Positions 32,639 to 36,383 of a DNA stretch of 36,383 bases are shown here, one piece after another. Made by a program: the position numbers and the translations under genes. The notes under the pieces were generated by a model. That model had not been told where the DNA came from. It ran no database searches and saw nothing but the letters and a program-made list of their open reading frames with translations. The stretch covers positions 1 through 36,383 of the forward strand of contig JAIEQF010000049.1 of assembly GCA_019747895.1 (NCBI GenBank), read 5' to 3'. Numbering within the stretch: position 1 is the first letter of the stretch; the number at the start of each line of letters is the position of its first letter. The stretch is from Chthoniobacterales bacterium (lineage in GTDB: Bacteria > Verrucomicrobiota > Verrucomicrobiia > Chthoniobacterales > UBA6821).

Positions 32639-33228
32639 TTAAAAGTTAGAAGTTCTGCTATTGAAGTCCTCCACAACATCATGGCTGTTAAATTTGATGA
32701 TCAATGTGATCATACGAGAAGTATTTTCAAAACCAGATTGGTGCCTCGATTGGCCAACTAAGAAGAGTGTCCAAAAACCGGAAATGGCATCTCGTTGTGA
32801 CGCCTGCATCGCACGTTGATAAGTCCAGACCTCGCGACCAGCGCCATCACGCGTCACGACATTGGGCGAACCAAATTTTTCTAGCACCTCGATTTTCGTT
32901 GTGCTGCCGGAATGAAGATTCATCTCCACGTTATAGTCAAATTACTTAGAAATTACAGGGAAGAACGCAGGAATTTTTAGAAAAGGCCAGGCCGAAGACC
33001 CAGCGCTATCTAAACGATAACGTGACGGGATGAGAGCGCAGTCTTTTCCTAAAAAGGACAAGTCAATTGCTTGTAAGTTCTAAGTAATTTGACTATACCT
33101 TGCGTGAGGCTGGAGTTCATTGTCATTACCGGTTGCAGCATCGAGGTGCAGCCGGAAAATAAACCGAGTGATACTAACAAGAGGCTCTTTTGTATTGTCG
33201 CGCCAAACAAATTATTTAATTTTTTCAC
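32639..33228 (-). pseudogene. BamE-like lipoprotein gene split by a palindromic insertion
   Basis: From a GTG at 33228 (AAGGA upstream) the frame gives a lipoprotein signal (KSLLLVSLGLFSGC) and MLQPVMTMNSSLTQG, then runs into a 166-bp palindrome and stops at 33049. Beyond the palindrome, YNVEMNLHSGSTTKIEVLEK followed by FGSPNVVTRDGAGREVWTYQ resumes in an open frame to the stop at 32639. This second part is the SmpA/OmlA (BamE) domain: it has the typical G-T-K-V-FG-P and V-W-Y positions. The two halves are the leader and body of one lipoprotein. A truncated cytoplasmic domain could still be made from the ATG at 32929, but it would not be exported. Confidence 0.7.
32932..33097. repeat. 166-bp palindromic MITE-like insertion
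   Basis: Perfect 20-base terminal inverted repeats (TATAGTCAAATTACTTAGAA at 32932-32951 and its complement at 33078-33097) extend inward with mismatches, including a second matching block TTTTTAG(G)AAAAG in each arm. The element carries no ORF and separates the signal peptide from the body of the BamE-like lipoprotein. The pattern is that of a non-autonomous transposable element. Confidence 0.8.
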
Positions 33229-33282
33229 AAGTGTCCTTTTAAACTTGGACACATGAAAAAGTTTTTCGTTCAAAAAAAATGA

Positions 33283-33822
33283 CTAATCAATAATAACCTG
33301 GAGCGAAGAGTAGTAGCGCGGGTAAGTCTGAGAAATCAAGGAAAGGGTTGCTTTTCCTGAATCGTTGCCAGCTTGGTATGAATAAATGTTATAAAAATTA
33401 TTAAAACTGGAACCGGTGCATTTGAGAGGAGTGCAATCAAGCACCCAATTTTCCCAACCGTCCCAATCGTCAACTTTTATCTCACTCTGAACATTATAAT
33501 TTGTCCCCAGGGTCCCCTTCCCTGCTTGCTGATAAAAAAGCCATTTTTTGTTTAAGGTCACAACAAGCTTTTGCCCTGGCAGTAAATGAATCGACTGAGC
33601 ATCCATCACCTGGCATTTTGCTGAATTAACATGGTTTCCTTCGAGCGGAATGAGCTCCAGCGAGAATTTTTTATCGGAAGCAATTTTTGTTGGCGCGGCA
33701 ATCAGAGCGCAGCTGCTAACTTCTGCTTGCGCCTCCAGCTTTTCCATGGATGAAAAAAAGATAAAGCCTAACGCGGCAACGCTCATGAAAAGATCCATGT
33801 TTCCTCTGTGATTTTTGTTCAT
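33283..33822 (-). CDS. Small exported protein, chagasin-like features
   Basis: 179 residues with a signal peptide ending near AQAEVSS. An ATG eight codons in, at 33798, has a strong AGAGGAA site and is an alternative start, although it loses the positive n-region. The mature part is mostly beta: LLPGQKLVVTLNKKW near 90-104, then SGKATLSLISQ and a terminal LQVIID. The spacing of G-Q-L-V-L, later G-A-L and a final hydrophobic strand resembles chagasin (I42) inhibitors and the two proteins encoded upstream of it. Three cysteines are present in the mature part. The inhibitor call is an inference; similarity to the other two is weak. Confidence 0.5.
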   Translation of the reverse strand: MNKNHRGNMDLFMSVAALGFIFFSSMEKLEAQAEVSSCALIAAPTKIASDKKFSLELIPLEGNHVNSAKCQVMDAQSIHLLPGQKLVVTLNKKWLFYQQAGKGTLGTNYNVQSEIKVDDWDGWENWVLDCTPLKCTGSSFNNFYNIYSYQAGNDSGKATLSLISQTYPRYYSSLQVIID

Positions 33823-34256: not shown

Positions 34257-34892
34257 TCATTTTGTTGTGACAAAAATATTCTTCACGTTGATTTTTTTAC
34301 CGGTCCCGCTGCATCTGTCGGTCGCTATTATCCCGTTATCATCGATACAATAGACCATCTCCAAACGTGTTTCTCCTGCGTGATTATTTTTTAAATGATA
34401 CGTAATATATTGTTCATTTTCCATAAGTTGAAAATCAGCATCCAAAGGACGTTTTGCTATTGGTGATAGGAAGTTAACCCACCCTCCGGAATTAAGCGTG
34501 TACAAGTCAAACTTAACCTCATTAGTCTCGCTAGGATATGGTCCCATCTTAGTAATGCCACCATTCCACAAGCCCTCAGGATTACCAAGATGGATAAGAA
34601 GATCTTGACCTTTTTCTAACGTAATTGATAGCGGCTTTAATAACTGAGCTCCATCATACTTTTCTGGGTTACTCCAAGAAGATGTATTTTTAGGACTTGA
34701 TACATCCCATGGTGTATTGACCAAATCAGCAACAGTTACTTCATAAGCGGGAATAGGGCTTATTGGACCACTCTTCTCTTGGACATATGTCCCAATATTT
34801 GAATCAGCAGCAGCTTGTTGACTTGAATTTTGCCCGGCTAAGCAAGCAGAGACTGTCATTGCGATTGATGCTAGTAGTAATAATTTTTTCAT
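34257..34892 (-). CDS. Putative lipoprotein with chagasin (I42)-like domain
   Basis: 211 residues. MKKLLLLASIAMTVSAC ends in a plausible lipobox (Cys17). The mature domain has VTVADLVN near 53-60, then PLSITLEKGQDLLIHLGN near 90-107, YITYHLKNNHAGETRLEMVY near 158-177 and a final NVKNIFVTT strand. ITLE(K/R)GQDL is shared with the gene at 35168, so the two are paralogues. The order G-Q-L-I-L, AG-T-L-Y and a terminal beta strand follows the chagasin inhibitor pattern. If correct, it would inhibit papain-like cysteine proteases in the periplasm or outside. Three mature cysteines are also present. Confidence 0.55.
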   Translation of the reverse strand: MKKLLLLASIAMTVSACLAGQNSSQQAAADSNIGTYVQEKSGPISPIPAYEVTVADLVNTPWDVSSPKNTSSWSNPEKYDGAQLLKPLSITLEKGQDLLIHLGNPEGLWNGGITKMGPYPSETNEVKFDLYTLNSGGWVNFLSPIAKRPLDADFQLMENEQYITYHLKNNHAGETRLEMVYCIDDNGIIATDRCSGTGKKINVKNIFVTTK

Positions 34893-35095
34893 AATGTTGG
34901 TTGGATTCTTAGTTGTAAAGCTGATGATATAAAATATGAATACGCTTCAGAAAGAAAAACATTCGAAAAATTTAACTTTCCCATAGATATTCTTTCTATG
35001 TTAGACACACAAAGCAATATTTCGTTCAAAAAAATCGCATCATTCTGATTCGATACAAAAACAATCCCGACTAGTTTCCTAATCGGGGCCGTGTT
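34893..35095 (-). terminator. Spacer with a terminator-like hairpin related to the rrn terminator
   Basis: The minus-strand hairpin CCCCGATTAGGAAACTAGTCGGG (35087-35064) is followed by ATTGTTTTTG. It shares the TAGGAAACTAG core with the rrn terminator at 35847-35888 but has a different closing stem, so it appears to be a diverged copy. The rest of the spacer is AT-rich with no gene. Confidence 0.55.
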
Positions 35096-35154
35096 AAAAA
35101 AGGACAGGCCCAGCTAATTTCCTAGCTGGGCCTGTTAATACTGGCGACGTCCTA
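35096..35154 (-). repeat. Second copy of the rrn terminator plus 5S tail
   Basis: Fifty-nine bases match 35847-35905 at 57 positions: a run of A (U-tract on the minus strand), the ACAGGCCCAGCTAG hairpin and the last bases of 5S rRNA (ACTGGCGACGTCCTA). It lies 751 bases downstream of the true end of the rrn operon, directly behind the 35168 gene, for which it can serve as terminator. Confidence 0.9.
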
Positions 35155-35167
35155 TTGCTAATGTTAT

Positions 35168-35761
35168 TTATTTGAAGTGAATGATCACAGGTTGAACATT
35201 CACATCAACATCCTGAAAAGCTCCAATGGATTTGCCTTTTTTGCAATAACTAAACTGCCAGTAAAAATCACGATAATATCCTCCTGTGAATTCATTTTTC
35301 CAAATTAATTCAACAGATGCTCCGTCAAATGGATGGATATCGCCATGATGATCTGGATCTAATTTATTTATATCAAGCTGTGCTCCGAGTTTAGAGATTT
35401 CTGTTTCCAAAGAGAGTGGGGCTGTCATCCAATTTTGGTCCGCAATGCATAACTCACCAAACTCTTCTGCACATTGACCCCAAGAATAAGAAGATGCTTG
35501 GGTAATTTTATTCACTTGATTAACCTTTATCACAAGGTCTTGTCCCCGTTCTAAGGTAATTTCAAGAGGAGCCTTCCAATGTTTCCCTCCACCAGGATAA
35601 TCTGAGCTACCAGGAGGTTGCCTCCAATAATCCAAGAGGTGATCAAGGGTTACAACCTGGGAGTTCCAATGCCCATCTTCTGAAGGCATTCCTTTGGCAA
35701 AGGGGGCAGCAATGGCTACAACAGTCATTATTATTTTTAATAGGTAAATATTTTTTTTCAT
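35168..35761 (-). CDS. Small exported protein, chagasin-like, paralogue of 34257
   Basis: About 197 residues from the ATG at 35761 (MKKNIYLLKIIMTVVAIAAP is a signal peptide; longer readings begin at a TTG or at the ATG at 35767). PLEITLERGQDLVIKVNQVN mirrors ITLEKGQDL in the protein encoded downstream, and SSYSWGQ follows where chagasins have a Thr-Gly-Tyr-x-Trp-like segment. A late YWQFSYCKKG and a final VDVNVQPVIIHF strand complete the pattern. The gene sits between two 59-base copies of the rrn terminator/5S tail, so it may be transcribed by read-through from the rrn operon or from its own promoter. The inhibitor role is inferred. Confidence 0.55.
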   Translation of the reverse strand: MKKNIYLLKIIMTVVAIAAPFAKGMPSEDGHWNSQVVTLDHLLDYWRQPPGSSDYPGGGKHWKAPLEITLERGQDLVIKVNQVNKITQASSYSWGQCAEEFGELCIADQNWMTAPLSLETEISKLGAQLDINKLDPDHHGDIHPFDGASVELIWKNEFTGGYYRDFYWQFSYCKKGKSIGAFQDVDVNVQPVIIHFK

Positions 35762-35846
35762 AATCATAAAATGTAATTTGATTGATATTATCTTAGTGTT
35801 AGACCATTTCAATAAGAATTCGTTCAAATTCTTTTGAAAGATTTAT

Positions 35847-35888
35847 AAAAAAGGACAGGCCCAACTAGTTTCCTAGCTGGGCCTGTTA
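35847..35888 (-). terminator. Rho-independent terminator of the rRNA operon
   Basis: On the minus strand ACAGGCCCAGCTAG, a GAAA-containing loop and CTAGTTGGGCCTGT form a long stem, followed by CC and TTTTTT. It begins a few bases after the 3' end of 5S rRNA. Confidence 0.92.
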
Positions 35889-35890
35889 AT

Positions 35891-36005
35891 ACTGGCGACG
35901 TCCTACTCTCGCACAACCTATAGATGCACTACCATCGGGGCTGCAGCGTTTCACTTCCGTGTTCGGGATGGGAACGGGTGGTTCCGCTGCGCTAAGATCA
36001 CCAGA
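35891..36005 (-). rRNA. rrf: 5S ribosomal RNA
   Basis: The reverse strand reads CTGGTGATCTTAGCGC at the 5' end, GGAACCACCCGTTCCCATCC and GAACACGGAAGTGAAAC in the conserved loops, and GAGAGTAGGACGTCGCCAG at the 3' end. CTGGTGA pairs with TCGCCAG to close helix I. The length is about 115 bases. It is cotranscribed after 23S rRNA and followed directly by the terminator. Confidence 0.96.

Positions 36006-36189: not shown

Positions 36190-36383
<194 letters not shown>

Follow-up and report, generated by a model that had tools for sequence, protein, structure and literature searches.

Repeated 5S rRNA tails and terminators around a gene at the rrn operon end of an uncultured Chthoniobacterales bacterium: an arrangement that looks like local duplication

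Introduction

When a protein-coding gene lies directly behind an rRNA operon and the tail of the 5S rRNA gene is found on both of its sides, has the gene been captured from elsewhere, or has the end of the operon been duplicated around it? The question is raised by the window analysed here, a stretch of 36,383 nucleotides which is contig C34 of the 2.06-Mb draft genome (55 contigs, 96 % complete) of an uncultured bacterium of the order Chthoniobacterales. A description of such an arrangement was not found among the papers listed by a literature search. The evidence presented below makes it look like ordinary local duplication rather than the capture of a foreign gene.

The repeated 5S tail and terminator

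Read along the minus strand, the locus consists of the 23S rRNA gene, the 5S rRNA gene, a first terminator (T1), gene 1, a second terminator with an orphan 5S tail (T2), a third terminator (T3), gene 2 and gene 3, and all elements from 23S to gene 2 are encoded on that strand. The 23S gene is represented by its 3' part (36191..36383, minus strand; Rfam RF02541, 165 bits), truncated at position 36383, where the contig ends. The 5S gene (35890..36005, minus strand; Rfam RF00001, 87.7 bits) is the only one detected in the draft genome, and the rrn operon is likewise the only one found.

The initial annotation had described a 59-base repeat around one gene, with copies 751 bases apart. When the comparison was recomputed, 35096-35154 was identical to its counterpart at 57 of the 59 positions, and the fullest extent of the repeat was 60 nt (35095-35154 versus 35846-35905, 58/60 identical, spacing 751 nt). 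Approximately 16 nt of it are the 3' end of 5S, the remainder being trailer and terminator. Copy 1, delimited by repeat comparison and predicted fold (35846..35905, minus strand; T1 stem 35855-35886), is the genuine 5S end, and copy 2 (35095..35154, minus strand; T2 stem 35104-35135) is an orphan tail with its terminator, directly 3' of gene 1. Beyond the 60 nt the flanks of the two copies are unrelated and the edges are sharp.

The genome was searched for the repeated segment with a 26-nt probe covering the junction of 5S and trailer, which matched the two repeat copies and nothing else in 2.06 Mb (≤3 mismatches). The initial annotation had allowed that many unrelated terminators of the genome might share the segment; both the junction probe and the stem-loop described below are confined to the rrn-end locus, and a general terminator family is ruled out.

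The genome is a draft, and the contig breaks off inside 23S at 36383, a typical break point, as might be expected if the repeat had arisen through an error of assembly or binning. The copies differ at two sites, however, and the sequence immediately preceding the orphan tail has no run of bases in common with the true 5S context. There is thus no overlap on which an assembler could join the sequences, so that some real molecule should carry gene 1 beside a 5S tail, and we regard such an error as very unlikely.

The three terminator hairpins

The stem-loop pattern SSSNNNTAGGAAAYTANNNSSS had three matches in the genome, all of them at the rrn-end locus, and none in the reversed control. One of the three is T3 (35061..35092, minus strand), the third and more diverged hairpin that had been noticed earlier. 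A GC-rich stem, a short loop and a T-run, the features of intrinsic (rho-independent) terminators, are found in T1, T2 and T3. T1 and T2 are both predicted to fold into a stem of 14 pairs, and both differences between the two hairpins preserve the pairing; T3 is predicted to be weaker, with mismatches in the lower stem and a shorter T-run.

Aligned from TTAAC through the loop, T3 and T1 gave a score of 21, the best of 300 shuffles reaching 12. The match of T3 to the rrn terminator of the same-genus genome G003 was similar (24/26, score 22, best shuffle 13), and to that of G001, also of the genus, it showed no resemblance (288 of 300 shuffles as good). Pattern SSSNNNTAGGAAAYTANNNSSS occurs once in the same-genus genome G004, at the rrn end, and in three of the remaining 36 genomes searched, with one unrelated-looking match each. 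T3 is best read as an old copy of the rrn terminator, because it matches the G003 terminator and T1 and because the pattern is confined to rrn ends in this genome and in G004. The rrn-end hairpin of G004 is identical to T1 letter for letter, and both T1/T2 differences sit in copy 2, so that copy 2 is probably the derived one; it is probably also younger than T3.

T2 and T3 abut, the T-run of T2 meeting the 'TTTAAC' that lies ahead of T3. An overlap of this kind is what a deletion between similar terminators would give, and every terminator of the locus is of the rrn type, which would fit a former tandem array of three units, each comprising 5S tail, terminator, promoter and gene, that lost its middle gene through a deletion between T2 and T3, so that two terminators were left adjacent. 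This history needs one extra gene and one exact deletion, with no remnant between T2 and T3, and tails that are 97 % identical go badly with genes as far apart as 1 and 2, except if the unit that was lost had been a recent one. We consider it unlikely.

The rrn terminators examined from the genus and from family f1 have GTCCTTTTT at their end, a sequence with the potential to pair with the AGGAC that 5S carries close to its 3' end. In the predicted folds this pairing was seen for T1 and for the G003 and G004 terminators, and it was absent in T2.

Genes 1, 2 and 3

Gene 1 (35168..35761, minus strand) encodes a protein of 197 amino acids with an N-terminus that, judged by eye, is signal-peptide-like. 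Gene 2 (34257..34892, minus strand) encodes a lipoprotein-like protein of 211 amino acids, and gene 3 (33283..33822, minus strand) one of 179 amino acids with a signal-like N-terminus. Neither gene 1 nor gene 2 belongs to a Pfam or NCBIfam family. Gene 1 had been called inhibitor-like; the open frame is real, but no Pfam inhibitor family matched it even at E 10, and a resemblance to chagasin-type (I42) inhibitors was considered but dropped for want of profile support.

The mature parts of the gene 1 and gene 2 products aligned with a score of 59, which 2 of 3000 shuffles equalled, and BLASTP gave an E value of 5e-5. The proteins are 27 % identical in a gapped alignment and have the motif PLxITLExGQDLxI in common. 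Gene 1 thus resembles gene 2 in position, length, promoter-like box and, weakly, in protein sequence, and the two are likely diverged paralogues. Gene 3 is possibly a more distant member of the group, being weakly similar to gene 2 (4/3000 shuffles as good) and showing no similarity above chance to gene 1 (648/3000). A profile built from genes 1, 2 and 3 matched those three genes alone across 20 genomes. Structure predictions were too poor for a comparison of folds (mean pLDDT 33.1 for gene 1 and 45.3 for gene 2).

No relative of gene 1 was found in 146 other genomes of the order, in genome_contigs, or among plasmids, phages and viral contigs. Gene 2 had one weak match (E 0.008), in G003. Since gene 2 is thus nearly an orphan as well, gene 1 is not distinguished by being one.

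Promoter-like boxes and transcription

Pattern searches revealed a box of the form TTTGAACGAA-N14-GTCTAACA (GAAC-N17-GTCTAA, ECF-like) upstream of gene 1 (35797..35828, minus strand) and of gene 2 (34999..35030, minus strand), and these are the two places in the genome at which it occurs exactly. With up to three mismatches there were ten matches in the genome and three in the reversed control. Of the seven matches outside the window, six coincide with or immediately precede a same-strand open frame, the frame beginning inside the box in one of them, and the seventh lies within another gene. In three cases the start codon follows 3-4 nt after the box, which would mean leaderless messages.

The GTCTAA form of the -10 element and this spacing occur in ECF/sigma-E promoters. 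With GAAC and GTCTAA 17 nt apart, ahead of genes for envelope or secreted proteins, the boxes resemble such promoters as far as sequence alone can tell, and they are treated here as putative promoters of the ECF/sigma-E type. For the sigma-E type promoters of Salmonella, a -35 element GGAACTTTT and a -10 element GTCAAA are given in PMC1804206. A sigma-70-like match upstream of gene 1 (35812-35785) is weaker and was equally common in shuffled sequences.

Between terminator and gene, the upstream regions of genes 1 and 2 aligned with a score of 18, the best value being 16 both among 400 shuffles and among 1734 control windows. A gapped test of the promoter regions was not significant (60.5 versus a shuffle maximum of 66) and an ungapped one was borderline (30/45, the best of 60 shuffles also reaching 30). 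Because similar boxes stand ahead of other genes, the box common to genes 1 and 2 may be a sign that a single sigma factor regulates both instead of a sign of shared descent, and the upstream similarity was counted only lightly in favour of duplication.

A weaker third box (33243-33274) was observed ahead of a lipoprotein-like frame. Together with the boxes at 34999-35030 and 35797-35828 and those of loci L058-L063, it may belong to an ECF-type regulon of mostly secreted-looking proteins. L060, a gene behind a similar box, had a faint similarity to gene 2 (4/500 shuffles as good); the corresponding values were 15/500 for gene 1 and 201/500 for gene 3.

The initial annotation had remarked that the layout puts the gene directly behind a strongly transcribed rrn operon. 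T1 retains its 14-pair stem and U-run in the predicted fold, and gene 1 has a promoter-like box of its own, so that nothing points to a dependence of gene 1 on transcription from rrn; read-through from rrn as the purpose of the layout is unsupported. In Enterococcus faecium, according to PMC11702846, a vanHAX insertion downstream of an rRNA operon came with a disrupted rrn terminator and with co-transcription of the genes and rRNA. The present locus is like the one outlined there in having a protein gene directly downstream of 5S, and unlike it in its intact T1 and in the separate promoter-like box of gene 1.

Comparison with relatives

The 5S-tail pattern was searched with at most one mismatch in 38 genomes, including the genome of the window (G000), and was matched in 23 of them; the other 15 may be drafts in which the operon end is missing, and absence there means little. 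Two tails close together were seen in G000 only, other second matches being on separate contigs or, in G028, far apart. An arrangement ancestral to all relatives, which the initial annotation had held to be a possible objection, is not what was found, paired tails occurring in 0 of the 37 other genomes searched. In genome_contigs nine stretches, one of them from Porphyromonas, had one match each.

The rrn end is visible in three of the five other genomes of the genus (G001, G003 and G004), each with a single tail and with downstream DNA unrelated to the window; searches of G002 and G005 revealed no 5S end. Eleven stretches of relatives were compared and had no synteny with the window past 5S, apart from the MITE-like element described below. 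The only protein matches from the rrn-end stretches of relatives fell on window genes at 8-13 kb, a long way from rrn. No empty site could be located, since even within the genus the DNA past 5S bears no relation to that of the window.

G004 and G003 (L028:715-760, L029:925-960) have in common a repeat-like sequence resembling ATATTTCATATTGATCGTGACGAGGAGG, noted by eye soon after the rrn terminator.

Insertion or duplication

Islands integrate at the ends of tRNA genes and leave a copy of the 3' end of the RNA gene at their far side. The present locus has the same outward form, a direct repeat that places the 3' end of an RNA gene on both sides of the enclosed DNA, and a cassette of gene 1 with 5S tail and terminator could have been inserted at the 5S end through recombination, either homologous or site-specific; the incoming tail would have completed 5S, and the tail and terminator already present would have been displaced downstream. 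A true end, a gene and an orphan tail are the product expected if a circle bearing the segment had entered by one crossover, the order of divergence (T1 and T2 young, T3 old) fits repeated insertion at one point, and gene 1 is without relatives in the collections searched. Unlike tRNA-end islands, however, the locus has no integrase and encloses a single gene which resembles its neighbour. The 751-nt unit contains no recombinase, its sole gene being gene 1 with no Pfam or NCBIfam family; no orphan tail was found in viral contigs, in plasmids or beside an rrn end of the other genomes searched; and the lack of relatives is not distinctive when gene 2 is nearly an orphan too. Insertion is therefore considered unlikely. 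A broader form of the idea is improbable: the 5S 3' end would be a recurrent insertion point in the lineage, where cassettes with 5S tail and terminator rebuild 5S and push older terminators outward, T1, T2 and T3 marking successive events in a fast-evolving locus of secreted proteins. If repeated insertion at 5S were true, bacterial chromosomes would have growth points at rrn ends as well as at tRNA ends.

The reading we prefer, with a probability of roughly 55 %, is local duplication in two steps, an old duplication of a unit of terminator, promoter and gene followed by a younger ectopic copy of 5S tail and terminator between the units. T1, T2 and T3 are repeats in direct orientation with homologous content, as local tandem duplication would leave. 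From the repeats, their uniqueness, the hairpins of the predicted folds and the promoter-like boxes we infer the order of events, the mechanism and the activity of promoters and terminators as follows. The rrn operon end would have served as template. In the older event, a unit reaching from the 5S trailer (TTAAC) through terminator and promoter to a gene for a secreted protein would have been duplicated, so that T1 came to be followed by gene 1 and T3 by gene 2, with strong divergence since then. In the younger event, ~60 nt comprising T1 and the final ~16 nt of 5S would have been copied to the boundary of gene 1 and T3, where they became T2; this would probably have happened once the lineage had separated from the nearest species that has the same terminator. 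A template switch or microhomology-mediated repair would be a natural mechanism because the T-run of T2 meets 'TTTAAC' before T3. The units would be insulated from each other: T1 would stop rRNA transcription, gene 1 would be transcribed from its own ECF-like promoter and end at T2-T3, and gene 2 would initiate at its own promoter.

Against local duplication, the protein similarity of genes 1 and 2 is weak, T3 is unlike the terminator of G001, no relative retains an intermediate state, and a ~60-nt copy right after gene 1 requires an ad hoc template switch. Of the two origins offered in the initial annotation, duplication at the operon end agrees with the presence, at this locus only, of one old copy beside two that are nearly identical; capture or site-specific insertion is unsupported, gene 1 resembling its neighbour gene 2 and no recombinase or mobile-element relative having been found. 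A 5S tail that flanks a gene on both sides is thus by itself no evidence of capture.

Multiple copies of 5S or terminator at rrn ends are exemplified by E. coli rrnD, which has two 5S genes. As in rrnD, distal parts of rrn are duplicated in tandem near the operon end, but the copied part in the present locus is limited to the terminator and ~16 nt from the 5S end, and a protein gene lies between. The locus is a clear case of an rrn terminator apparently serving a second time, as a spacer that separates adjacent lineage-specific genes.

A MITE-like element near the locus

A MITE-like element of ~166 bp with imperfect inverted ends (TATAGTCAAATTACTTAGAA...) was observed at 32932-33097. Among the matches listed for the genome, 40 are near full-length copies at 96-100 %, including the one in the window, and there are 121 matches when fragments are included. 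G001 has 109 matches, the full-length ones among those listed being at 80-87 %, and there are fewer in G002-G005; none was found in 14 genomes outside the genus. These counts and identities suggest recent activity of the element and a distribution limited to the genus. It apparently interrupts a lipoprotein gene (32639-33235), with a signal-like start and a lipobox-like cysteine on one side and, on the other, a frame containing TTKIEVLEKFG, which is reminiscent of BamE/SmpA; the latter frame runs into stops within and before the element. In G001 a related copy (L030:9357-9522) is found ~80 nt past the 5S end.
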